DNA from: a virus
Length of the DNA stretch: 50,484 nt
IMG/VR virus record: IMGVR_UViG_3300025435_000028
Coordinates: 1 to 50,484 of that record
Strand: one strand, 5' to 3'
The position numbers were made by a program, and so were the translations under genes. Of this stretch, positions 1-44,156 are shown piece by piece. Below the pieces are notes generated by a model that had not been told where the DNA came from, did not search any database, and worked only from the letters and a program-made list of their open reading frames with translations. Each line of letters opens with the position of its first letter. Position 1 is the first letter of the stretch.

Positions 1-515
1 CCGTCACTAACCAAGTTGGTATATGGTCCATTCCGCTTAATGTCGTTAACCCAAGTACTACTAAAAGCTGGGTTGCAGTAACTACAAGCAAACTGACAAG
101 TCCTATCAAAGGCAATTTCCAGTGTTTGTAAGTTGACGTCGTTGCTTGCTGGGGTACGAAATGCTGCATTTAAATCCTCATCTGAATAAATTACTGTTTT
201 GTATACACGGTCACTGATGCTGTCCCGCCCCATGTCTTCAATCTTCCAGCAGTATTCACAACCGCTAGGACGTTCACCCTTTTGCATCTGCTCACGCTCC
301 ATCTTTTTCTTTTGCGTGTTATGAAGTGCCTTAGGGTTGCGCTGTACATCGTCTAGGTCAATGGCGTGTGGCAATGGATGATGGCAGCTGGTTGTTTGTC
401 CGCTGCCAAGCCATATGGTTGCGTTGTACCATTTGGCTGCACAGAATGATTCACTTTTGATGTCAATTACTCTGCGTTTGTATTCTAAGTCTGTTTCGTT
501 ATTGATTTTGGGCAT
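1..515 (-). CDS. Radical SAM protein with N-terminal twitch-like Cys region (partial, C-terminus beyond window)
   Basis: The reading frame is open from an ATG at 515 to the window edge, about 171 codons, so the C-terminus is missing. The protein starts MPKINNETDLEYKRR. A Cys-rich N-terminal part (CAAKW, SCHHP, RPSGCEYCW) is followed at about residues 145-152 by CQFACSYC, the CxxxCxxC motif that binds the radical-SAM 4Fe-4S cluster. The same arrangement occurs in the gene just upstream (499-1884), so the two are paralogues. The start overlaps that gene's 3' end by 17 bp, suggesting translational coupling at the end of the accessory operon. Radical SAM enzymes cleave S-adenosylmethionine to a 5'-deoxyadenosyl radical. 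The substrate here is unknown; modification of a glycan or peptide alongside the neighbouring glycosyltransferases is an inference. Confidence 0.8.
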   Translation of the reverse strand, partial: MPKINNETDLEYKRRVIDIKSESFCAAKWYNATIWLGSGQTTSCHHPLPHAIDLDDVQRNPKALHNTQKKKMEREQMQKGERPSGCEYCWKIEDMGRDSISDRVYKTVIYSDEDLNAAFRTPASNDVNLQTLEIAFDRTCQFACSYCNPAFSSTWVNDIKRNGPYTNLVSD

Positions 516-1884
516 GGTATCTACACTCTTCCCAGAACTCTTTCATCTGTGGGAATGTTGCTAAAAAGTCTGTGTGTCTACGTTTATCGTGTTCATTAAA
601 GAAGCGATAGAAGTCTGCACGTTGTAGTTTAACATAATCAGGATCAAGTTTGCTACCAGCTCTCATCCAATCTATGTCACGGCGCAGGCGTTGTATCTCG
701 TAGTCTTTGAATCCTACGTAGCCATCTTCGGGCATGAGATTTAGTTCCATCCAATCTGCTACACGTTCCAATCGGTCAGCATAGACAGCGGGCAGTATTT
801 GCAGACTTTGCCATGTAGGTGTGCGTAGCAGGGGTGTGTCAAACCAAACTCGTTGATATGTTTTACTGTAGAGTCTGCGTAGTTCCAGAATCCATTGCAG
901 TAGATTTTGCAGTCCTAGTACACTGAGATTGTTCATTGTGATGATAAATGTAAGGCTATTGCGATTGGGGATCTTGTCTAGAAAACGGTGTACATTTTCA
1001 AACAAGCGATTGTAGACCAAGCCATCGCGAACGTATTCAGCGTGTTCGTGTATGCCTGTATCCAAACTTACATACTGCATGAAGTGTTCGATTTGTGTAT
1101 CGCACAAGCGTTTAACATAGTCGTGGTATTTGTCATACAGTTTAGGTTCTACGCTGAAATTACTTGTGACATTTAAGTGCAAGTCTGGCTTGGGCAAGGC
1201 CAACACATAGTCAAAAACTCGATAGGTATTCCGGTCCATGAGTGGTTCACCACCAGTCATGCGAAAATGTTTCAGTTGAGGATACAGAGTCGGGAACCAC
1301 TCCCAAAACGCTTCCACATACGGATTGTACTCTCGGGCAGGTATGGGTCGTCTCTGGCCCACAAAATAATCAGGTGAGTTGTGAGGTACGCTAGTAGGAT
1401 ATGCGCCGTAACGACTGGACTCGTCGGCCCAGCTAGAACTATACTGAGGACTGCAATAACTGCAACGTAGATTGCAAGCACTACTGAAGTTGACCTCCAC
1501 GTAGCTAGGAACAACATCGTCTTCGACTCCTGTACTGTTTTTAATTGTGGCATAGTGTTCTGCGGCCCAAGGTTCGCCGCTCCTGTAATGTCTGTCGCTT
1601 AGGTTGCCTAAGTCTTCTTGTGTCCAGCAATAGTTACATTCGCTCGGGCGTTCATTCTTCAGCATTATGACACGCTGTTGTTTCTTGTGCTCGGTATTGT
1701 GTAGTGCGCCAGGATTTGTTTCGAGTGGCTCAACTGGAATTTGATGCAGGGGTGGATGATAGCAACTGTTTGTCAGTCCAGTGGGCAAATGCAAACTGAC
1801 TTGTTGCCATTTAGCCAAGCACAGTGCTGGACCTAGTTTATCCCGCATATCCTCTGCACTTGACATAAAATCGCTTTTACTCAC
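499..1884 (-). CDS. Radical SAM protein, twitch-type, Cys-rich N-terminus
   Basis: This is a 461-residue protein. The motif CNLRCSYC at about residues 136-143 is the radical-SAM cluster loop, and FRMTGGEPL near residue 210 matches the family's GGEP motif. The N-terminal 90 residues carry CLAKW, SCYHP, an ALHNT segment and RPSECNYCW. This looks like the auxiliary-cluster (twitch/SPASM-like) segment that normally lies C-terminal to the barrel, so the order may be permuted. The frame opens with GTG at 1884 inside the upstream stop region; an ATG at 1866 is a possible shorter start. It sits between a glycosyltransferase-like gene and a paralogous radical SAM gene. The radical SAM assignment is firm from the motifs; the substrate is unknown. 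Confidence 0.87.
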   Translation of the reverse strand: MSKSDFMSSAEDMRDKLGPALCLAKWQQVSLHLPTGLTNSCYHPPLHQIPVEPLETNPGALHNTEHKKQQRVIMLKNERPSECNYCWTQEDLGNLSDRHYRSGEPWAAEHYATIKNSTGVEDDVVPSYVEVNFSSACNLRCSYCSPQYSSSWADESSRYGAYPTSVPHNSPDYFVGQRRPIPAREYNPYVEAFWEWFPTLYPQLKHFRMTGGEPLMDRNTYRVFDYVLALPKPDLHLNVTSNFSVEPKLYDKYHDYVKRLCDTQIEHFMQYVSLDTGIHEHAEYVRDGLVYNRLFENVHRFLDKIPNRNSLTFIITMNNLSVLGLQNLLQWILELRRLYSKTYQRVWFDTPLLRTPTWQSLQILPAVYADRLERVADWMELNLMPEDGYVGFKDYEIQRLRRDIDWMRAGSKLDPDYVKLQRADFYRFFNEHDKRRHTDFLATFPQMKEFWEECRYHAQNQ

Positions 1885-6051: not shown

Positions 6052-7308
6052 TTACGAATTTAATTTAACGACAGCTTCTACTACACCTTTGCCGTCTGTA
6101 TCTTTGTTCTCTAAACTACGTCCAATGACGTTCCACGCGGTAATTTCACTGCGTTGTCCTGCACGAGCGTATCCGTTGCCTGCACTTACTAAACGATCAC
6201 CTTTGCGAATTTTACCCATTACCTTAACTGGTACACGTCCTTGAACTGCAATTGGAGGGTGGGTTGAATTGTCGCCTGCTCGGCTATTCATCACGAAAGC
6301 TGCATTAGTACTTATGACCCCAAACACTTCTTCGCTTAATTCACTTGATACTGCTGTAATTTCAGCAGATCCGCCCAATTCAACCACTGTACCAGAATCA
6401 TACTCGGCATCTGCTTCAAATCGTTCTGCCAAGTCAGCGTATTGTGCATGAACGCTGGTTCCGTAGATATTATTCCACCAATTGGTAGTAGAACCAATAT
6501 TGTACGACAAATTGGCGCTGGGTACAAGATTACTGGTAAGACTGTTTAGATTTAAGTTTTGAGTTGATGGGAATGTGATATTTCCTGTGAAATTGACATT
6601 TCCGCTGAAAGTTGCGCTGCCTGCAGAAAGACTGCCTGTTGTAACAATATTACCTGCCGAGACGTTTCCTGTTGCAGTTATAGCAGTGGTTTGCAGGTTT
6701 GCCACGTTGGCATTGCCAAGTGCTGTTAGGCCGGCGACTAGATTCAATCCTGGATTGATTATAGTTAGTCCCGAAACTGGAGCAGCCGGAGCAAATGCTG
6801 TGCTGTCTGAGCTGAATACCCCGCTCAGTTTGTTGTTAACTGTAACGTTACCAACATAGTGAGTTGTTGTGCCATCGCTGACACTGTTGGCTTGCAAAGA
6901 AGTAACTGCTGCGCCCACAGACAAGAACGGGCCAATAGAAATCCATTGTGTACCGTTGTAGACGTTGAACTGACTACTGGCTGTATTCCACCAAAAATCC
7001 CCAGTAACTGGCGATGCAGGAGCTATAGATCCAGTCTGGCTGCTGCTGATGACTTTCCAGTTGGTGCCTTGCCAAACGCTCAAATGTTTGTTATTGCTGT
7101 CCCACCAAAGTTGCCCGTTTAAGGGGTTGGTTGGTGCTGTTGAACTGGCAAAGTTTTCCAGTAACTTGATAAAGTTTTCGTTTAGGAATCCGCCAAATCC
7201 CGCAAAATTTCGTCCAACAAGGGATAGACTTGTGGTTGTCGAATCCTGTGTACCGTCAGCCAGTGTCAACAGTGGGGTTCCATTTGTAAGCGTAAGTGAA
7301 TATGGCAT
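6052..7308 (-). CDS. Tail fibre protein with N-terminal LWWD module and C-terminal DLAE-type domain
   Basis: This is a 418-residue fibre protein. Residues 1-125 contain ENFIKLLENFASS and repeated GQLWWDS / GDFWWNT plus NVYNGTQW motifs, also found in the 393-aa fibre at 11450-12631. The middle (about 150-280) is a low-complexity Ala/Gly/Asn/Thr shaft with NVS and GNIT-type strand repeats. Residues 285-418 (NNIYGTSVHAQYADLAERFEAD, then GRVPVKVMGKIRKGD) match the C-terminal domain of the 331-aa fibre at 13314-14309. A late promoter box lies at 7331-7338. The role is probably host recognition or a fibre segment; attachment site and receptor are unknown. Confidence 0.8.
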   Translation of the reverse strand: MPYSLTLTNGTPLLTLADGTQDSTTTSLSLVGRNFAGFGGFLNENFIKLLENFASSTAPTNPLNGQLWWDSNNKHLSVWQGTNWKVISSSQTGSIAPASPVTGDFWWNTASSQFNVYNGTQWISIGPFLSVGAAVTSLQANSVSDGTTTHYVGNVTVNNKLSGVFSSDSTAFAPAAPVSGLTIINPGLNLVAGLTALGNANVANLQTTAITATGNVSAGNIVTTGSLSAGSATFSGNVNFTGNITFPSTQNLNLNSLTSNLVPSANLSYNIGSTTNWWNNIYGTSVHAQYADLAERFEADAEYDSGTVVELGGSAEITAVSSELSEEVFGVISTNAAFVMNSRAGDNSTHPPIAVQGRVPVKVMGKIRKGDRLVSAGNGYARAGQRSEITAWNVIGRSLENKDTDGKGVVEAVVKLNS

Positions 7309-7593: not shown

Positions 7594-7824
7594 TTATTCT
7601 CCCTGTTGATCAGCTCGCCACTGTTTGAAAGCTGTAATAATAGGGCCGTGTTGATCTGCTGGCACTGCGGCTTCACCGTAGGCCGCATACTTGACCAGTG
7701 GCAATTGAGGAGCGAGCTGTTTGTAGATATCAATGTTTGAGTGCAACTCACTAAAAACTTGATTCTGTTTGTCTTGATCTAAATTGTTAAATTTTGCTGT
7801 TAAATCTGCTAATGAGTAAAACAT
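7594..7824 (-). CDS. Hypothetical protein, 76 aa
   Basis: It starts at the ATG at 7824 (MFYSLADLTAKFNN), with AAGGA six bases upstream; an in-frame TTG at 7830 sits too close to that site. The product is small, mostly helical and soluble, ending FKQWRADQQGE. It is not recognised. It lies between a permuted papain-like hydrolase and a small Gly-rich protein in the fibre operon, with gaps of 2 bp and 1 bp, so it may help assemble or process the fibres. Nothing in the sequence proves this. Confidence 0.7.
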   Translation of the reverse strand: MFYSLADLTAKFNNLDQDKQNQVFSELHSNIDIYKQLAPQLPLVKYAAYGEAAVPADQHGPIITAFKQWRADQQGE

Positions 7825-7826
7825 AT

Positions 7827-8294
7827 TCAATCCTTTCTAGGTATTTCTGTGGCTTTTGAACTTAATCGAATTCTGTTCAGCAAGTCTGCTGGGGTGATTT
7901 TGGCAAAGTCGTCTGGGAACAATTTTATTCCGGCTAGGTCTAGCCCCATTGCACAAAACTCGCTACACATCCAACGCGCATCATCTTTCCACTGTTTCTT
8001 GGTTCTAGGAATCAGTACGTTAAATGGTGCCAGTGCCGTGTAGTCATAGGGCTTACCAATTTGGCTGTAGGCCCAAGCACGTACTTGACCTTCTTCATCC
8101 GCCGTAAGATCTAGTTCGTAGTGTATTTCATTTCTGTAGTTGGTCTTTGTCATGATAATGTGACCATTTTCCATTGCTGGATAAATGCTCATACCATCAT
8201 CAAATACTAGTTCACAATGACTAGCTGGACTCATTGTATAGAGTCTACACAGTATAGAAAAGGGCAGTAGATTAGATGTAAATTTTATTTTCAT
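7827..8294 (-). CDS. Permuted papain-like (NlpC/P60 superfamily, YebB/YiiX type) hydrolase
   Basis: This is a 155-residue protein. His26 in MSPASHCELVF comes before Cys110 in ARWMCSEFC, with GKPYDYTAL at about residues 80-88 between them. His before Cys is the circularly permuted order of the YebB/YiiX-like branch of NlpC/P60 enzymes, which act as amidases, peptidases or acyltransferases. There is no signal peptide. It overlaps the stop of the Hint-domain fibre gene (ATGA), so the two are probably translated together. Likely roles are cutting cell-wall peptides during infection or processing the neighbouring fibre. The family call is fairly firm from motif order; the substrate is unknown. Confidence 0.75.
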   Translation of the reverse strand: MKIKFTSNLLPFSILCRLYTMSPASHCELVFDDGMSIYPAMENGHIIMTKTNYRNEIHYELDLTADEEGQVRAWAYSQIGKPYDYTALAPFNVLIPRTKKQWKDDARWMCSEFCAMGLDLAGIKLFPDDFAKITPADLLNRIRLSSKATEIPRKD

Positions 8295-11200
8295 TTTCTA
8301 AACAACTTTTTAACAATGTAGTTTCTCAAGCGTGTGTTAACCCACCATACTAATGGTTTTTCAATTGTGCTGCGATGTTTAATACCCCAAGCAACCAGTC
8401 TTCCTACTGTTCTACTTGTAACAGTATCATGAGTCAATACATATTGCGCCACTGCTTGCAGTCCATTAAAGAACATTTTCTGTACATGAACAGGCATCTG
8501 CTGGTTTTGTAAGTTGTAGACCCAAGACTCGTAAGTGTCTTGATCCATTAGTCCTTTGTGTACCATTACCCAAGCACCGCCGTTCTTAACGATGTTGTTT
8601 ACTCTTAGTCCATTGGCGTAATGGCTTTCTCCAGTAGACAGCATCAAATTGTAGACCATTACTGGATTTGACAGCTTGACTTTGTTTGCGACTTCAACAA
8701 TTTTTACATCGCCCAACCATGGTGCTTGTTCTGTACACAATGTGCTTATAGCACAAAGTTGGTCATCGTCATTGTACCATGGATGTTCTTCTGTGATGTA
8801 AGGAGTTTCGTCCTCACCAAGTGCAAATACCCATTTGCCAGTATCATGCTCTCGAGTTTTAACTCCAATGACCATTGTTGGTTTATTAGTTAATGCTTCA
8901 ACAATCATGTCTCCAACTTGTATAGTACTGATTGGTTTTTCAGTACCGTCGGCCATTCTAATTAGTGTATGCGGTAAGAAGCATCCGCCACCGCCACTAG
9001 CTTCACCGTCATCATCATCGGTGTCGTAACCGCCACCGTCATATCCACTGTTGCCAGGTGCTGAACCATCGTTATAAGCACTACCTCCAGGTGAGCCACC
9101 GCCCACAGTAATAGTACCAAAACTACCGCTGATAGTGGTAGATTGTCCAGTTTGTCCTGCACCAGGATCTAGTAGTGTTCTTGTATCCCATATTATGGTA
9201 TTAGTAGAGTCTTGTACTGTTACAGCAAATCCGCCAATGCCGCCAGTATTGGTTGCACGGAATGCAAGCGATCTTGTACCAGGCGCTAAGAATACGTTGG
9301 CAGTTGTACTAGTAGCCGCACTATTTGAAGTTATTATAGGATAACCATCAACTAGAACTTTTACAATATTGTCTGCTTGGGCAGCAAACGTATAGTATCC
9401 TGCTGTAGGAACAATTAACACCCTATTAGATAGATATTCTGTGTTGAGCGGACTAATACCGTCAGGGCTGACCCAGACAGCGTGACTATTCATGAACGAG
9501 CTCCAACTGCTGCTAGTGGCTGTATAGTATTTGACTTGTCCAATACGTCCAGTAGTACCAGCATCCCCAACAGTAATAGTCAATGTTTCTCCAGGCGTTA
9601 CTGCAACATCCGTTGATGTAGAATATCCGCCAGATCCACCACCACCGCCTCCCCCACCTTGGAGGACAACGTTGTTGGATACGCCACCACCACCGCCTCC
9701 GCCGCCAGCTACAGCAAACATGGTAATGCGATGTACATGGTCAGGCACCGTCCAATAGTGTACGCCTGGTGTCTCAAATACGTTATGACCACTAGGGCGT
9801 ATTACATTGATTGTAACTGGTATTTTAAGAGCACGTGCATTTTGTGCGTCACTGTTGATAATAATAGTGTCTGTGTAGGTTTTGCTTGGCATGGCAATTG
9901 GTGCAACAACCATTGTTGTTGTATTGCCAGTGCGAGTGTCCCAATTAAATCCAATATTGGTGTTGGCCAGGCTTACAACCTGTACATAACCGTTTGCAGT
10001 AGTTACATTGGCTATATTGAGATCAGCACCGTTGCCGCTGTTTGTAATAGTAATAGTTTGTTCAGCACTGGCTACATAACCGTATTCAACTACGCTTGCG
10101 GAACCTGCGCCACCTGCGACAGCAACGCCGCCGCCGTTATTGGATCTGCTTGAAGTCCAACCACTTGGCACAAGATCTGCACCATCGCTGCCACTGTAGG
10201 CACCATTATCTCCATCAACCAAAGATCCAGCTTGTCCGCCATATTGGCCACCACCCCCACCGCCAGCACCGCCACCATCGCCGCCTTTGTATGCTCCTGC
10301 TCCGCCGTAGGTTGTGCCGTTACTTGCGTAGCCAACTTGTCCTTTGCCAGTTCCCGATGTTTTATCAGTAATGTAGACTGGTTGATAATAATTGATAGCA
10401 AAATCACTTGTGTCGGATGTTTGTTCGTAGCCTAGGAAAATTCTTCCGTTACCACCGCCACCACCACCACCACCTCCGGCAGCTACAGCAATGATTGTAC
10501 CGTTCTTTTTAAGTACAGTGGCTGCTCCACCGCCACCACCTGATCCCGATGATCCTGCAGGACCGGCATTGCCACCAGCTCCGCCACCATAACCATCAGC
10601 ACTATAACCGCCAGCCCCGCCACCGTTGCCAGATCCAGTATAGCCATTACTACCACCGTCACCAACATAGATCTGTATAGTATCACCGGTGCTCACTGCC
10701 AAATTGCCAGTTACTGCATGACCTGCATAACCCGTATGACCTAACTGACTATCATTACCACCACCACCGCCTCCCCCACCAACAAGAGTTACTGCAATAT
10801 AATTGGTGCCGCTGGGAATAGTGAAAGAATATGAACCAGGGCTTGAATAACTGTAGTTGGTTGTACCTTCATATTCGTAGTAGTACAAATTAGCCAAAGT
10901 TGTTGGATTGGTTGCAATACCGTTATAGTCAGGGCGCACGGTGACATTCACTGGCAGGCTGACGTTAGAATATCCAAAATACCCAATGTAGTTTGTAAAA
11001 TACAAGTTGCCTGCGAACGAACCAACTGTGGATCCATATATAGTTGTGGATATATTAGTTGACTGATTTGGCGCTAGAGTAATTGGCAATGATGGAAATT
11101 GATGTGCAAAGGTACTGTAGTTACCTGTGCTATCATTGATGACAATATTATTGATAGTTAAGTCGTAATCGCCAGTGTTTAGAATATTAACTACTTTAGG

Positions 11201-11446
11201 GGTGTCGGTATAGCGTTGATAAGGAATAGCATTAATAGCCGCAACGTTGGGAGTAAATATGCCTTTTGGAGTTGGATAGATTCTTTCCCATGTGCCATCA
11301 TCATGACATACCCAGCCTGTTTTAACTGGCGCCCAAGTGCCGTCAGACTGCTCGATCCAGGCACCTTTAAGAGGTTTATAAGTGCCAGAATCTTTTATGT
11401 ATGTTACGCCCAGTCCATACTTAATTGCGGAATTAGGTATTGTCAT
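8291..11446 (-). CDS. Glycine-rich tail fibre/adhesin with PA14-like domain and C-terminal Hint domain
   Basis: This is a 1051-residue mosaic protein. Residues 1-60 carry two DGTW-type repeats. About 60-170 looks like an ASH / choice-of-anchor-D beta-sandwich (VVNILNTGDYDLTINNI). About 195-460 is a glycine-rich adhesin segment with runs of 8 or more Gly, then a second beta-sandwich (TITITNSGNGADLNI) and a second Gly-rich block near 560-630. About 640-760 resembles PA14 (AGYYTFAAQADNIVKVLVDG). Residues 822-951 form a Hint domain: it opens with Cys822 (GGCFLPHTLIRMADG), has a TxxH block (TEEHPWY) and closes with NLMLSTGESHYANGLRVNN. The last 100 residues are basic and hydrophobic and not recognised. 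Poly-Gly sandwiches bind receptors in the gp38 adhesins of T2-like phages. Confidence 0.85.
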   Translation of the reverse strand: MTIPNSAIKYGLGVTYIKDSGTYKPLKGAWIEQSDGTWAPVKTGWVCHDDGTWERIYPTPKGIFTPNVAAINAIPYQRYTDTPKVVNILNTGDYDLTINNIVINDSTGNYSTFAHQFPSLPITLAPNQSTNISTTIYGSTVGSFAGNLYFTNYIGYFGYSNVSLPVNVTVRPDYNGIATNPTTLANLYYYEYEGTTNYSYSSPGSYSFTIPSGTNYIAVTLVGGGGGGGGNDSQLGHTGYAGHAVTGNLAVSTGDTIQIYVGDGGSNGYTGSGNGGGAGGYSADGYGGGAGGNAGPAGSSGSGGGGGAATVLKKNGTIIAVAAGGGGGGGGGNGRIFLGYEQTSDTSDFAINYYQPVYITDKTSGTGKGQVGYASNGTTYGGAGAYKGGDGGGAGGGGGGQYGGQAGSLVDGDNGAYSGSDGADLVPSGWTSSRSNNGGGVAVAGGAGSASVVEYGYVASAEQTITITNSGNGADLNIANVTTANGYVQVVSLANTNIGFNWDTRTGNTTTMVVAPIAMPSKTYTDTIIINSDAQNARALKIPVTINVIRPSGHNVFETPGVHYWTVPDHVHRITMFAVAGGGGGGGGVSNNVVLQGGGGGGGGSGGYSTSTDVAVTPGETLTITVGDAGTTGRIGQVKYYTATSSSWSSFMNSHAVWVSPDGISPLNTEYLSNRVLIVPTAGYYTFAAQADNIVKVLVDGYPIITSNSAATSTTANVFLAPGTRSLAFRATNTGGIGGFAVTVQDSTNTIIWDTRTLLDPGAGQTGQSTTISGSFGTITVGGGSPGGSAYNDGSAPGNSGYDGGGYDTDDDDGEASGGGGCFLPHTLIRMADGTEKPISTIQVGDMIVEALTNKPTMVIGVKTREHDTGKWVFALGEDETPYITEEHPWYNDDDQLCAISTLCTEQAPWLGDVKIVEVANKVKLSNPVMVYNLMLSTGESHYANGLRVNNIVKNGGAWVMVHKGLMDQDTYESWVYNLQNQQMPVHVQKMFFNGLQAVAQYVLTHDTVTSRTVGRLVAWGIKHRSTIEKPLVWWVNTRLRNYIVKKLFRK

Positions 11447-30565: not shown

Positions 30566-30573
30566 TATTTATT
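30566..30573 (-). promoter_or_regulatory. T4-type late promoter box (AATAAATA) for gp25
   Basis: AATAAATA followed by CACT and the ATG of gp25. With T4 spacing, +1 falls at 30560-30561, on the start codon. The layout is nearly the same as at 50044-50051 (TATAAATA, ACACT, ATG). Confidence 0.45.
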
Positions 30574-33500
30574 GTAGTGGTGCGCTCAATAATTGTACGT
30601 GTACGGCGTCAGGTTTGCTGAATGTGCCGCCCCAACGTAGTCCGTATTGTGCAAAATCAACTGTACGTGCAATCAATGCCATCTGCCCGCTGTCAATTGC
30701 CATACCATCATTGTGTGCGCTGTGCTTGAGCGACGGTGTAGTAATGCCACCAGCGGTGGGATTATTAGGGCCGCCACCTGCTGCATGCCAACGATCAATC
30801 AATGATTGCTGATCTGCTAGGCTACGATAAGCGCTGGTAATAGTAATCTTAGCACCAGATTTTGCCTTAAAGTCCTGTGCCATTTTGAGTACAGCATCTT
30901 TAAAGTCACTGCTTAGTTGATCAAATCCTGCTCGTGTTCCGGTGCCACTTGCGGCAAATGTAAACACATCATCAGGGTTGATACCTGTGGTATTTGCACC
31001 GCTTAACCCAACTGCTTGTGCTACACTACCTACAGCACCGCCAGCTGCTAGAATGTCAATCGCATAGCGTCCGTGATTGTAGTAGACTGAGCCATCTTGT
31101 CCCTGTGCATCAGCGACTGTACCTGTATCGCGCCATTTTTTAGCTGCTGCGCTGCTACGCATCTGATAAGCTACCAACATCATACCTGCTGCGGTACAAA
31201 CATCATCTGTAGACACAATACCACTGTTTCCAACTAGTTCTTTATAGTAGGTACTTAAGGCTGCATACATGATAGCGTCTTGTAGTGCTGGACTGTTAAA
31301 GAAGTCGTCTTGACTTGTTATGCCATCTTTGCCTGCCCATGCAACTGGCTTACTCAGTGTGTTAACTCCAAATGTGTTAATCGCATCAGGTTTGATATAG
31401 CCGTTTGTGGCCAAGAACTGTGCATCCATGCCATACTTGCCAATGCGTGTACGATCATCGCTAACATAGCTGTAGTTGAATTGACTGATAAAGTAGCCCA
31501 ACTCTGCCATGACTGCTTTGGCTTGTACGGTACTCATGTTAGGGCTAGTTGCCCCAAAGTTGCCAGTTGGAGCGTAGGTTGTAGTCTTGGCCAAGAACTC
31601 TGCAGGGCAAGTTGGTGCCTGTACAGTTTGTCCTGACGCTTTGGTAATGCCCATGTCCTTAGATGTTGCGGATCCACTCATGATAGGTTTGCCGCTGCCA
31701 TCTGTGATTGGTGTGCCTGTACCCGATGTTATTGCTCCTGCAGGTGCTGCTGGTGCTTGGCTTGACTCTCCTGCGTTTGCCAGTGCCTGTTGTATAACCG
31801 GAAGCCATTTGGCTGCTGCTGCCCCAACGCTGGCACAGGTAATGCTACCGTTAGCTGAACGTAGTCCGGCATTTTGCTGTGCTTGTTTGCTGTCTGCTGC
31901 GTTGACAATAAAGTCATCAGGTTTGCCAACTGCTGCCGGCCAATAGATACATAGGTATAAGTCTTGCAGTTTAGGAGTAGGAGCTTTCTTGTTTAATCCC
32001 AAACTTTGGAAGAATTTCAGCACCCAATCCATTTGATCCACACGACTTAGATCTTTTAGTGCGTCTGTAGTTGTGCCAAGTCCCTTGGCAGTATTAGGTA
32101 TAAATTGTATTAAGCCAGTAGCACCAATACTGTTTACAATTCCTGGATCAAACGTGGCACCAGTCTCGTTGGCCATACAGGCTAGAAGGTCAATATAGTT
32201 GGCATTGATTGTTGATGCAACACTCTTGACCTTGTCAATGAATGCTTTGTCTGTGCTCCACGGAGTTGGTACACCTTTGACTGTACCTTTATCTTTACTG
32301 TTGCCGTTGGGCGCCGGCAAGTTATAACTTGCAGGAGTTCCTGCTGTTTTAGGAGCGCAAACGCTGCTGGCCACAGATTTAGTTGTTGGTGCAGGTTTGC
32401 CTGTGCGTGTCCAAGGTTCGTGACTTGGCAGTATAGTTACAACGCTGTCCACGCTTTGTGGTACACTGGTCCACAATTTAGTAACTTCACTGTCGTAAGT
32501 GGTGTCTGCAAGTTTGTTTTTACTCAGTGTTGGATAGCTGATACTGTTACCACCTGATCCGCCGTTGATGTCAATAGTGCTACCGCTGACTGTCATAGCG
32601 CCTCCGCTGCTGACTGTAAGTTTACCATCTGCACTCATGACTAGCTGACCAGCGCCAATGTTGGTTTTGGCTCCGTATAGCAACAAGTTTTCGCTGCCGC
32701 CTAGCTTGACTGCGGCACTGTTAACCGTAAATGATTCGTCGCTGGCAATATTGATAGCCCCGCCACTTTGTATGTTGATGTCTTTGTCTGCGTGTAGGTT
32801 AAAATTGCCCTCGCTACGTATGCTCATGTCGCCGGCTGTGTAAATTTTAATACCAGTCTCGTCAATTTCAACCCAGCTGGTGCCATCCTTGTGGTTAACG
32901 TAGATTACATTTTGATCATCGTTCATTAAAATTTGATGACCATTGGCAGTACGCAGGCGAATTAGATTGTCTTTGCCGTTTACATCGCCATCGTCCATGA
33001 CAAATGTGTGTCCACCTTTGCGTGTAGGAACGCTGTATTGATCTGCTGTGATACCACCTGCTGCTACTTTGGCAGCATAGCCCGGATCATCTGCTGGATC
33101 TTTTGTCAGCGCACGTCCTGGTGTGCTGATACCAAATACATGGCTAGGAGTTTCACGTTGGCTGCTACTACTGATTGCTCCACGAGTAGGGTCACGATCT
33201 AGACCCTGTTTGAACAAGATGTTGGCCTGAAACTCGTGGATGGGTTTCTTGTTTGTGTAGAATGTGCTGTTAACTGTACCATCAACGTTTTCGTTAAATT
33301 CAGTAACAGGCAGCACCTGTGGAGGTGTATGATCATCAGGCAACAAGCTGGGTTTGATATCAACACTGGCAGTGGACTTGTCTACATTGGTACTAGAACC
33401 AATTGCCGGCAACATCCAGTTACTGAGTACTCCGCTAACACAAGCAAACCAAAAGCCACGTTCGGGGTCACCGTTGACAAAGGTACATAACACTTGGTTA

Positions 33501-33811
33501 CCAATGTCAGGTGGAGTCATCCACATACCATAGCTGTGAACTACACCAGTGTAGTTGTTGTTCAAGCTATTACTAGGTTGGTAGGTTGTGCCCATGTAGG
33601 GGCTTGCATAGTTTACTGTACGCCAAAAGCTGGGATTGGTTTCATCGCCGCCCATGTCTGGAATCCATACACGCAAACGTCCGTCACGTGCCGGGCTGAT
33701 ATTGTCTTTAACAATGCCCAACATAGTGGCTGTATCAAAACGTACCCCAGGGATGCTGTCTCTGTTATAGAGTTTTGATATCTTACTACCTGATACTTTA
33801 TCCTGTGCCAT
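30569..33811 (-). CDS. 5: Baseplate hub/tail spike gp5-like with lytic transglycosylase and M15 peptidase domains
   Basis: A 1080-residue protein at the T4 gp5 position. An OB-fold lies at about residues 25-130 (DNISPARDGRLRVWIPDMGGDE). A VgrG/gp5C-like beta-helix with short repeats lies at about 305-420 (IKIYTAGDMSIRSEGNFNLH). At about 515-670 there is a transglycosylase-like domain with the candidate catalytic Glu549 (MANETGATFD) and the GATGLIQF motif. An unassigned helical domain follows (about 740-940). At about 940-1080 there is a VanY/M15-type Zn peptidase (TSAYRS, KHSAHNDGMAID, DAVHVQ). T4 gp5 (575 aa) has a single lysozyme domain. This one could cut both glycan strands and peptide stems of peptidoglycan as the tail penetrates. 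Confidence 0.88.
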   Translation of the reverse strand: MAQDKVSGSKISKLYNRDSIPGVRFDTATMLGIVKDNISPARDGRLRVWIPDMGGDETNPSFWRTVNYASPYMGTTYQPSNSLNNNYTGVVHSYGMWMTPPDIGNQVLCTFVNGDPERGFWFACVSGVLSNWMLPAIGSSTNVDKSTASVDIKPSLLPDDHTPPQVLPVTEFNENVDGTVNSTFYTNKKPIHEFQANILFKQGLDRDPTRGAISSSSQRETPSHVFGISTPGRALTKDPADDPGYAAKVAAGGITADQYSVPTRKGGHTFVMDDGDVNGKDNLIRLRTANGHQILMNDDQNVIYVNHKDGTSWVEIDETGIKIYTAGDMSIRSEGNFNLHADKDINIQSGGAINIASDESFTVNSAAVKLGGSENLLLYGAKTNIGAGQLVMSADGKLTVSSGGAMTVSGSTIDINGGSGGNSISYPTLSKNKLADTTYDSEVTKLWTSVPQSVDSVVTILPSHEPWTRTGKPAPTTKSVASSVCAPKTAGTPASYNLPAPNGNSKDKGTVKGVPTPWSTDKAFIDKVKSVASTINANYIDLLACMANETGATFDPGIVNSIGATGLIQFIPNTAKGLGTTTDALKDLSRVDQMDWVLKFFQSLGLNKKAPTPKLQDLYLCIYWPAAVGKPDDFIVNAADSKQAQQNAGLRSANGSITCASVGAAAAKWLPVIQQALANAGESSQAPAAPAGAITSGTGTPITDGSGKPIMSGSATSKDMGITKASGQTVQAPTCPAEFLAKTTTYAPTGNFGATSPNMSTVQAKAVMAELGYFISQFNYSYVSDDRTRIGKYGMDAQFLATNGYIKPDAINTFGVNTLSKPVAWAGKDGITSQDDFFNSPALQDAIMYAALSTYYKELVGNSGIVSTDDVCTAAGMMLVAYQMRSSAAAKKWRDTGTVADAQGQDGSVYYNHGRYAIDILAAGGAVGSVAQAVGLSGANTTGINPDDVFTFAASGTGTRAGFDQLSSDFKDAVLKMAQDFKAKSGAKITITSAYRSLADQQSLIDRWHAAGGGPNNPTAGGITTPSLKHSAHNDGMAIDSGQMALIARTVDFAQYGLRWGGTFSKPDAVHVQLLSAPLQ

Positions 33812-40935: not shown

Positions 40936-42692
40936 AAGATCTCGCAGTTAAAAATTTCATGAGTGTGGGTAATGCTACACAGGCCGTAAACTTTGATCGT
41001 AATGACTTAACTCTTGTGCTGGGTGAAAACTTGGACTTGGGCGGAGATGACAGCGGAGCACGTAACGGTACAGGTAAGACCACAATTATCAATGCGCTCA
41101 GTTACGGACTTTATGGACAGGCTCTAACTAACATCAAGAAAGACAACTTGATCAACAAGACTAATGGCAAGGGCATGATGGTCACAGTTGATTTTGAAGT
41201 CAATGGCATTAACTATCGCATTGAACGTGGACGCAAGCCCAACGTGATGAAGTTCTTCATTGATGATACTGAACGTGAGATCACAGATGAAAGTCAAGGC
41301 GATAGTAGAGAAACACAGGCTGACATTGAACGCATGTTGGGCATGAGCCACGAAATGTTCAAACATATTGTGGCACTCAACACCTACACTGAGCCGTTCC
41401 TTAGTTTGAAAAGTAATGATCAACGACTCATGATTGAACAGTTGTTGGGCATTACACTACTAAGTGAAAAGGCAGAACGACTAAAAGAACTGGCCAAAGC
41501 CACAAAGGATGCTATCACTGCTGAAGAATTTAGAATTAAAGCAGTAGGCGATGCAAACCGACGTATACAGGATCAAATCGATGCACTCTTACGACGCCAG
41601 AATTTATGGAACAGCAAAAAGACAAACGATGTTGCAGCGTTGCAGACAGCTTATGATGAACTTGCTAAACTCGACATTGAAGCTGAACTATCTGCACACA
41701 AGGCACTAGCCGACTATAATGTCAAGCGCAAGGCCATTAATGATCTCAACAGCTGGATCAAACGCTGCGAGCTGGATGAAAAGCGTGAACTGAAAGAAAT
41801 TGACAAGCTCAAGAATGACATTGCAGCCTTAGAAAATCATACCTGTCACAGTTGTGGACAAGCGTTCCACGATGACAAACAAGTGCAGTTGCTAGAGGAA
41901 AAGCGCAAGGCACTACAGGAAGCCGCATTACAAGCACTAGCAACCAACACACAGTTGATGGAACATACCGACACATTGGCGGCACTGGGAGAGCTAGGTA
42001 CGATGCCAAAGGTGTTTTATGATAACGAAGCAGATGCCTTTGAACATCGTAGCAGCATGGGCAGTGTGTTGGCGCAACTTACAGCCAAGCAAAATGAAGC
42101 GGATCCCTATGTTGATCAAATACGTGAGATGCAGGAGCAGGCGTTAGAGGAAATTGACTTTGCAGTCATGAACGAGCTAGATGAGCTGCGTACACACCAA
42201 GACTTCTTGCACAAACTGCTGACCAACAAGGATAGCTTTATCCGTAAACGTATTATTGATCAGAACTTGAGCTACTTGAATGCTCGCTTAGGACAATATT
42301 TAGATCGCATTGGTCTGCCGCATACTGTAAAATTCAACAACGACCTAACTGTAAGCATTACAGAACTAGGGCGCGACTTGGACTTTGACAACTTGAGCCG
42401 CGGTGAGCGCAATCGACTTATCTTGAGCTTGAGCTGGGCATTCCGCGATGTGTGGGAAAGTCTATATCAGCCCATTAACTTGCTGTTCATCGACGAGCTC
42501 GTTGACAGCGGTATGGATAGCAGTGGTGTTGAAAACGCACTGGCTATTCTCAAGAAGATGAGTAGGGATCACAACAAGAGTATTTGGCTCGTGAGTCACA
42601 AAGACGAGCTAGCCGGACGTGTAAATAACACGCTCAAGGTTGTAAAAGAAAACGGCTATACCAGCTACGACACAGATTTAGAAATAACTTAA
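40923..42692 (+). CDS. 46: Recombination endonuclease subunit gp46 (SbcC/Rad50 ATPase)
   Basis: 589 residues (T4 gp46: 560). The Walker A motif GARNGTGKTT is at residues 45-54. A coiled coil is interrupted by a zinc hook, CHSC (Cys308/Cys311). The ABC signature LSRGERNRLIL is near 490-500 and Walker B NLLFIDEL near 518, with SHKDEL as the switch His. It is the ATPase partner of gp47: ATP binding clamps DNA ends for processing. The 13-bp overlap with the upstream gene and the TAATG junction with the downstream radical SAM gene indicate one tightly coupled operon. Confidence 0.94.
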   Translation: MFKIKDLAVKNFMSVGNATQAVNFDRNDLTLVLGENLDLGGDDSGARNGTGKTTIINALSYGLYGQALTNIKKDNLINKTNGKGMMVTVDFEVNGINYRIERGRKPNVMKFFIDDTEREITDESQGDSRETQADIERMLGMSHEMFKHIVALNTYTEPFLSLKSNDQRLMIEQLLGITLLSEKAERLKELAKATKDAITAEEFRIKAVGDANRRIQDQIDALLRRQNLWNSKKTNDVAALQTAYDELAKLDIEAELSAHKALADYNVKRKAINDLNSWIKRCELDEKRELKEIDKLKNDIAALENHTCHSCGQAFHDDKQVQLLEEKRKALQEAALQALATNTQLMEHTDTLAALGELGTMPKVFYDNEADAFEHRSSMGSVLAQLTAKQNEADPYVDQIREMQEQALEEIDFAVMNELDELRTHQDFLHKLLTNKDSFIRKRIIDQNLSYLNARLGQYLDRIGLPHTVKFNNDLTVSITELGRDLDFDNLSRGERNRLILSLSWAFRDVWESLYQPINLLFIDELVDSGMDSSGVENALAILKKMSRDHNKSIWLVSHKDELAGRVNNTLKVVKENGYTSYDTDLEIT

Positions 42693-43702
42693 TGTTAGCA
42701 ACTTGGCATTTTCACATTGAGATTAGCAGCAAGTGTACCTTGCGCTGCCCTCGCTGTGCTCGACAAGAAGTGCCCGACACGCTGGTCAACACTGAACTAG
42801 ATCTAGAGTTTTTCAAACGCAACTTTACTCCTGAGTTTATACAAGCGAATGTAGAAAAGATCACATTCTGTGGGGATGACGGTGACCCTATCTATGCACA
42901 CGATCTCATACCTGTTATACAGTACATCAAAAGCATCAAGCCCGTTGAGATTGTGATTGTTACAAATGGATCACACAAAAAGATCACTTGGTGGATTGAA
43001 CTAGGCAAAACCCTAACTGAAATTGACAGCGTACATTTTAGTATTGACGGCTACGATAATTACAGTAATAACATCTATCGCGTCAACAGCGACTGGGACA
43101 GTATCATTGCCGGGCTACAAACCCTGCGAGCTACCAGCCGCTGCATGATTGTATGGGCGGCCATTGCATTTAAATTTAATGAGCACCGGTTAGATTTTAT
43201 GCAACGATTCGCAAAACAGTTGGGCGTTGATAGATTTCAACTAACAAAGAGTACAAAATTTGGCTCAATATACAATTCTTATGGCACAGACGATACCCTT
43301 GAACCTAGTAGAGATTTAATTAGCTCTACCCACAGATTCGAGAGAGAAGTCACTGATTTAACAGATCAAGCATCATGGCACATTATTCCCTTAACAAACT
43401 TAAAACTCCACAATAAATTAATCAACTCAGCACCAATTAAACCCCTTTGCGCTATTGGTAACAAGGGGCTATACATTGATGCACAGGGAAGATTGTTTCC
43501 CTGTTGTTGGGTTGCAAATAGATATAGTCACAATAACGAATGGCAAATACTGGCAGAACAATTTAATTTAAATCATACAACACTAGAACAAGCATTGGCA
43601 CACAAATTTTGGTCAGAAGATTTTCAGAGCTTTCGTTGGCAGGAATGCCAAACCAAATGCTCAAGCGCTGTAGTTGATGAAAAATACGCCACTGAGTGGT
43701 AA
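42692..43702 (+). CDS. Radical SAM protein with SPASM-like C-terminus
   Basis: This is a 336-residue protein. Cys15, Cys19 and Cys22 (KCTLRCPRC) bind the SAM-coordinating cluster; FCGDDGDPIYA near residue 60 replaces the common GGEP. The C-terminal cysteines (PLCAIGNKGLYIDAQGRLFPCCWVANRYS, then CQTKCSS) fit a SPASM/twitch auxiliary cluster. The order is the standard one, unlike the two enzymes at 1-1884. SPASM enzymes often modify peptides or sugars; no precursor peptide is evident next to it. Coupling to gp46 by a TAATG junction places it in the early recombination operon. Substrate unknown. Confidence 0.85.
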   Translation: MLATWHFHIEISSKCTLRCPRCARQEVPDTLVNTELDLEFFKRNFTPEFIQANVEKITFCGDDGDPIYAHDLIPVIQYIKSIKPVEIVIVTNGSHKKITWWIELGKTLTEIDSVHFSIDGYDNYSNNIYRVNSDWDSIIAGLQTLRATSRCMIVWAAIAFKFNEHRLDFMQRFAKQLGVDRFQLTKSTKFGSIYNSYGTDDTLEPSRDLISSTHRFEREVTDLTDQASWHIIPLTNLKLHNKLINSAPIKPLCAIGNKGLYIDAQGRLFPCCWVANRYSHNNEWQILAEQFNLNHTTLEQALAHKFWSEDFQSFRWQECQTKCSSAVVDEKYATEW

Positions 43703-43721
43703 AGTCATAACTATATGTGCA

Positions 43722-44156
43722 ATGACATGGTATTATCAAGGAACCCCTGTAGAAACTCTACCCGACGACTGTGTTGGTTTTGTTTACATTATTGTCAATA
43801 ATCTATCTGGCAAAAAGTACATAGGCAAAAAACTAGCGAAATTCGCAAAAACCACTTATAAAACAGTAAAACTCAAGAACGGCACAAAAAAGAAAAAGAA
43901 GATTCGATCAAAGATCGACAGCGATTGGCTTACCTATTATGGCTCAAACGATCAATTAAACCGAGACGTTCAAACTCACGGCACCGAAAACTTTACCAGA
44001 GAAATACTTTACTATTGCAAATCAAAAGCGGAATGTAGTTACATCGAAGCTCGAGAACAATTCACACATAGAGTATTAGAATCAACAGATTATTATAACG
44101 GACAGATCTCAGTCCGTGTGCATGGCTCCCATATTATAAACAAACTGAACGGATAA
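43722..44156 (+). CDS. GIY-YIG endonuclease, free-standing (Seg-like)
   Basis: 144 residues when started at the ATG at 43722 (MTWYYQGTPVETLPDDCVGFVYIIVNN); the frame is open upstream but overlaps the radical SAM gene. GFVYIIVNNLSGKKYIGKK is the GIY-YIG motif (VYI...YIG), followed by SDWLTYYGSNDQL, FTREILYYC and the presumed metal-binding Glu in CSYIEAREQF. A Lys-rich insertion (KLKNGTKKKKKIRSK) may contact DNA. Such Seg/homing-type nucleases spread by cutting genomes that lack them. It lies next to a hairpin-rich non-coding region and a separate NUMOD3 remnant, suggesting a hotspot for mobile nucleases. Confidence 0.85.
   Translation: MTWYYQGTPVETLPDDCVGFVYIIVNNLSGKKYIGKKLAKFAKTTYKTVKLKNGTKKKKKIRSKIDSDWLTYYGSNDQLNRDVQTHGTENFTREILYYCKSKAECSYIEAREQFTHRVLESTDYYNGQISVRVHGSHIINKLNG

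Follow-up and report, generated by a model that had tools for sequence, protein, structure and literature searches.

Hint domains with a helical extension and, in one clade, a linked papain-like gene in predicted tail-region proteins of uncultivated phages

Hint domains are known for protein splicing, hedgehog lipidation and toxin release. In phage virion proteins, they are known from annotation alone, and a search of the open-access literature, with most subscription papers outside its scope, found no study of them. The annotated cases include the "Hint domain containing protein" entries of uncultured Caudovirales in BFVD, which share with the locus described here the presence of Hint in environmental phage proteins, one match being named for collagen repeats. 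Two characterized systems transfer a protein to an acceptor. In Hedgehog, cholesterol, held by the helical C-terminal region, attacks the thioester (PMC7906309), and the sterol recognition region (SRR) of Hog comes after Hint (PMC7906309, PMC2362128). BIL2, from the Tetrahymena BUBL1 locus, joins a ubiquitin-like domain to lysine through an isopeptide bond (PMC8616854). BIL domains without a +1 nucleophile mainly cleave (PMC7664689, PMC7765530).

The Hint gene analyzed here comes from an uncultivated giant-type phage, a 50,484-base IMG/VR virus record that, at its full length, is referred to below as the window. The gp6-like baseplate wedge protein encoded in the window is nearest to those of the very large myoviruses Sinorhizobium phage Phosso, Atu_ph07, K64-1 and RaK2 (34% over 96-99%), and a 4134-aa virion protein and a portal protein are encoded as well. 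The Hint gene lies among tail-fibre-like genes, and a neighbouring one (6052-7308, minus strand) gives a sub-threshold match to Peptidase_G2, an autoproteolytic intramolecular chaperone (E = 6.5e-5). The carrier ORF (8291..11446, minus strand) encodes 1051 amino acids and consists of an Ig-like/choice-of-anchor region, with a weak choice-of-anchor D match, two glycine-rich parts (PF21722, E = 2.4e-9), a weak PA14-like stretch that stays below threshold, the Hint domain and a C-terminal helical domain. The carrier is likely a tail-region surface protein.

With a single sequence as the query, the evidence for Hint was weak: the Pfam families Hint, Vint and Hom_end_hint all remained below threshold, and the top PDB match had E = 0.018. 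With eight homologues, it became strong. A profile built from eight relatives, L002-L008 being drawn from IMG/VR (41-63% identical), matched the structure of the Tetrahymena BIL2 Hint domain (6y75/6tmm) with E = 3e-7, and Vint and Hom_end_hint were detected in all eight family members, yet under the Pfam cut-offs. In a Foldseek comparison of the AlphaFold model (pLDDT 78, pTM 0.75) with the PDB, the top matches were all Hint structures (E down to 1e-7, probability 1.00), namely, BIL2, Vint, the gp41-1 and MchDnaB inteins, and a BIL domain of C. thermocellum. The fold is thus established: residues 822-951 (8594..8983, minus strand) are a true Hint domain, far beyond chance. The first-pass annotation, which had proposed such a domain in a glycine-rich phage adhesin, is borne out as to the domain and supported in part as to its interpretation, a self-processing, possibly self-attaching, receptor-binding protein. 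Of the span it gave, 8581-8983, the upper end coincides with Cys822, and the lower end overshoots Asn951 by about four codons.

The family assembled here comprises more than 40 uncultivated phage proteins, about 40 loci having been added by a scan with relatives that lack the terminal Asn (A3), in which one of the patterns used, VYNLWVD, was independent of Cys1. IMG/VR contigs are fragments, some with frame breaks, and the collections may omit near relatives of the window. The family was found in none of 50,697 phage records. Searches of phage isolates with five family members gave no match to Hint and tail at full length; partial matches of L020 to phage isolates covered at most 54% of the query and were mostly to helicase and terminase genes. 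The sequence patterns applied to GTDB genomes yielded no bacterial homologues. The phylogenetic tree splits the family, with 100/100 support, into clade G1 (the window and nine others), in which the terminal Asn is kept and followed by Ile or Met, and clade G2 (n = 33), in which the sequence ends TTS-Ile and the C-terminal residues, including this Asn, are lost.

The residues of N-terminal chemistry are strictly conserved. The Hint domain of the window starts with Cys822-Phe, where Cys822 (8981..8983, minus strand) is the Hint Cys1, the predicted nucleophile of the N-to-S acyl shift. In the untrimmed alignment, Cys1 followed by Phe occurs in all members whose sequence reaches this position; this alignment was the one used for Cys1, because the rows of the 42-sequence alignment were trimmed at Cys-Phe, so that invariance there is partly by construction. 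Immediately ahead of Cys1, Gly818-Gly821 (8984..8995, minus strand) correspond to a poly-Gly stretch found in most of the G1 clade, with Ser or Glu at position -1 in a few members. Thr885 and His888 of the block B sequence TEEH (8783..8794, minus strand), the VYN-Leu motif and Trp910 of the PWLG signature (residues 909-912; 8711..8722, minus strand), which joins the two clades, are invariant in 42 of the 42 sequences at a median pairwise identity of 37%. The TxxH block reported previously holds up as T885-E-E-H888, and the second TxxH of the window (T864-H867) is not conserved across the family. These invariant columns bear on the possibility that the domain is catalytically dead and has no function other than that of a rigid module for structure or binding. 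The degenerate C-terminal splice residues are what such a module might be expected to show, but the catalytic Cys1, Thr and His are among the invariant columns at this level of divergence, and we consider loss of catalysis very unlikely. Retention of Cys1, Thr and His with loss of the terminal Asn and His in 33 of the 42 members fits, instead, the use of the N-to-S acyl shift alone.

The C-terminal end of the domain differs between the clades. In the window, block G ends in Asn950-Asn951 (8594..8599, minus strand; the Asn951 codon is 8596-8594), followed by Ile952; the earlier identification of Cys at position 1, Asn at the penultimate position and Ile after the terminal Asn is confirmed from the translation. 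Asn951 is invariant in G1 and replaced by Ser/Thr in G2, so that the terminal column holds Asn in 9 and Ser/Thr in 33 of the full-length members. The next residue is Ile in 39, Leu in two and Met in one of the 42. The penultimate residue in G1 is Asn, Ser or His, the pair being Asn-Asn in the window, Ser-Asn in L005/L006 and His-Asn in L008. Compared with a class 1 intein, the window has the terminal Asn and lacks the penultimate His, both of which are present in L008, and the +1 Cys/Ser/Thr is replaced by Ile952 in the window and by Ile, Leu or Met family-wide. An active intein is rejected as unlikely because of this +1 residue and the absent penultimate His, in agreement with the first-pass view that splicing is unlikely: there is no canonical splicing end, and the residues for N-terminal chemistry (Cys1, TxxH) are intact. 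Two other Hint classes are not supported. The window scores 14.7 bits against the PT-HINT family (PF07591; cut-off 27.7), and, no toxin family being matched in the tail by Pfam, a polymorphic toxin reading was rejected; against Vint (PF14623), it scores 18.3 bits (cut-off 27), and the carrier has no VWA match.

The BIL domains of types A and B resemble the phage family in their occurrence in variable proteins, in the lack of a +1 nucleophile and in fold (2lwy, E = 4.5e-5). The His-Asn end of type A is replaced in the window by Asn-Asn, and G2 is without the canonical C-terminal motif; unlike BIL domains, the phage domain belongs to a cassette with a partner gene. A BIL-type double cleavage, at Cys1 and after Asn951, could release the helical tail as a separate peptide that may resemble an effector, and the papain-like protein encoded next to it would then be a second effector or a partner. 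The invariance of Asn951 in all readable G1 members, with Ile or Met at +1 in a BIL-like end, is compatible with this scheme, as is the full His-Asn of L008, but most G1 members lack the penultimate His, G2 keeps the tail although the Asn is wholly lost, and the tail matches no toxin family. We therefore regard double cleavage as quite unlikely. Nevertheless, the invariant Asn951 suggests that C-terminal cleavage may matter in G1, which counts against a reading restricted to N-terminal chemistry.

By both profile (E = 3e-7) and fold (E = 1e-7), the best match is the BIL2 Hint, with Cys1 and the block B His common to both. At about 20% identity, the phage family differs in its structural carrier, its helical tail, its thiol enzyme partner and its replaced penultimate His. 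The helical tail (8294..8593, minus strand), an alpha-helical region of about 100 amino acids, follows Hint in all full-length members, as judged from the alignment, with helicity taken from AlphaFold. This order, with some 100 helical residues C-terminal to Hint, recalls Hog, and the G2 residues fit N-terminal thioester chemistry only. However, the model resembles 1at0 only weakly (E = 0.015), the carrier is unrelated, and Pfam and Foldseek searches detected no homologue of the sterol recognition region in the tail, which counts against the autoprocessing reading favored below. A similarity of the tail to FrpD/FrpC (Pfam FrpC, E = 0.012; PDB 5edj, E = 0.36) was found in only one of eight members and was attributed to chance.

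In the G1 clade, the Hint gene is accompanied by a gene for a predicted thiol enzyme. In the window, this gene (7827..8294, minus strand; 155 aa) starts within a four-base overlap with the end of the carrier ORF, at its stop codon. In all eight G1 loci found first, a papain-like gene of 154-164 codons lies directly downstream of the Hint gene, from a four-base overlap to a few bases apart. The modeled protein matches E. coli YiiX (2if6) and B. cereus PPNE (3kw0) with probability 1.00 and TM scores of 0.66 and 0.63-0.65, respectively; its fold is the permuted papain type of YiiX/YaeF enzymes, in which His precedes Cys, and His26 and Cys110 are invariant in eight aligned homologues. The partner shares the fold and the His-then-Cys order with YiiX/BcPPNE but is 16% identical, encoded by phages and linked to a Hint gene. 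PPNE enzymes, whose pockets are lipid-lined, have lipid-amino acid amides as their proposed substrates (PMC3142127), and a relative of theirs in S. aureus is involved in lipoprotein N-acylation (PMC7387801). In a search from the papain-like protein, which brought in new loci, the close homologues (at least 47% identity) with readable upstream sequence were all preceded by a G1 Hint. The linkage is established: the order of G1 Hint gene and papain-like gene is found in 10 of the 10 loci with readable upstream sequence, including the window, L164 and L167 (the latter, with a frame break inside Hint that was left as is, counted for gene order only; L170, which starts at a contig end, is outside this count), although part of it could reflect inheritance because G1 is a single clade. 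The partner was found in none of the G2 loci, those cut soon after Hint being uninformative. A third gene, encoding a small helical protein (76 aa in the window; 7594..7824, minus strand), is present after most G1 enzymes, with a clear homologue in six other G1 loci, a diverged one in L005 and none in L008. The helical domain, the papain-like gene, the small third gene and the swappable nature of the cassette were all absent from the first-pass annotation.

The carriers of G1 Hint domains fall into three groups: those of the window and L002, a set of shorter glycine-rich proteins, and the DUF4815 proteins of L008 and L167. The L008 carrier shares 57% identity over 1329 aa with the DUF4815 carriers of L102/L103 and 53-54% with those of L107, L109 and L110; these five loci have a G2 Hint and no papain-like gene, whereas L008/L167 have a G1 Hint and the enzyme. 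What follows the papain-like gene in L008 corresponds to the gene directly after Hint in L102. DUF4815 carriers that are 53-57% identical bear either a G1 Hint together with the enzyme or only a G2 Hint, and so the cassette moves as one piece; the papain-like enzyme goes with the type of Hint rather than with the carrier. Carriers of the DUF4815/VrlC family are common among phage isolates, two of their parts matching 850 and 1281 records, and among these isolates the family queries gave no full Hint-tail match.

The association with different carriers can also be read as assembly-time maturation, with Hint and the tail serving as a chaperone or assembly module at the C-terminus that removes itself after fibre formation, as autocleaved C-terminal chaperone domains do in other phage fibres and spikes. 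The Hint-tail sits at the C-terminus of tail-region proteins, one Hint-tail type occurs on different carriers, and the Peptidase_G2 match in the neighbouring gene (see above) implies that the genome may already use such domains. This reading, however, leaves the obligatory thiol enzyme partner of G1 unexplained and gives no account of why Hint would take the place of the usual S74/G2 domain, and the structural matches of the model are to Hint proteins, not to chaperones; it merits some weight but appears unlikely.

The residue pattern, the precedents of Hedgehog, BIL2 and BIL domains, and the proposed PPNE chemistry jointly favor cleavage at Gly821/Cys822 with hydrolysis or transfer. From these, we infer the reaction, its product and the role of the partner enzyme. 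Cys822, aided by Thr885 and His888, would convert the Gly821-Cys822 peptide bond into a thioester, which could be resolved by hydrolysis or by passing the glycine-rich carrier C-terminus to an outside nucleophile, an amine or a lipid, as in Hog and BIL2; splicing would not occur. The helical tail and the adjoining thiol enzyme would, most likely, set the site or the acceptor of the reaction. That Hint and the tail constitute a C-terminal autoprocessing cassette of phage structural proteins, with N-terminal chemistry only and with the tail and the thiol enzyme guiding it, is, in our estimate, an even call. A more specific version is speculative and rather doubtful: on or after assembly, the Hint-tail might act as a Hog-like ligase, transferring the C-terminal poly-glycine of a virion protein to a lipid or lysine on the virion or host surface, with the papain-like enzyme as a second transferase, acceptor or editor. 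If so, phages would possess an ATP-free system of covalent attachment that uses two enzymes and is swapped as a cassette among tail proteins. A family that strictly keeps the residues of N-terminal chemistry, has lost those of C-terminal chemistry and comes with its own helical extension and a thiol enzyme gene alongside offers a concrete, testable case of predicted self-processing in phage fibres; phages may process or attach fibres chemically by a route so far unstudied, possibly also yielding a new protein ligation tool.

Several other features of these loci were recorded. Two to four tandem Hint domains are present in L012, L014, L098, L028, L058 and L070, several of which are DUF4815 structural proteins; in tandem-Hint phage proteins, the upstream copies often end in His-Asn, have no +1 nucleophile and are spaced by a few residues. 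Several G2 members (loci such as L086, L087, L096 and L097) contain Cys-Gly repeats (CGCGC, NCNCNC) immediately ahead of Cys1. In L002 (2497-6693, plus strand), the closest relative of the carrier, an S8 subtilase-type peptidase domain (Pfam, E = 2.9e-16) and Big_2 are fused ahead of the glycine-rich Hint protein. Elsewhere in the window, a baseplate hub protein (30569-33811, minus strand) has a VanY/M15-like cell wall peptidase domain fused at its end, two radical SAM proteins are encoded at 499-1884 (minus strand) and 42692-43702 (plus strand), one with a SPASM-like part, and a gene at 43677-44153 (plus strand) encodes a SegE-like GIY-YIG homing endonuclease (Pfam, E = 2.9e-32).
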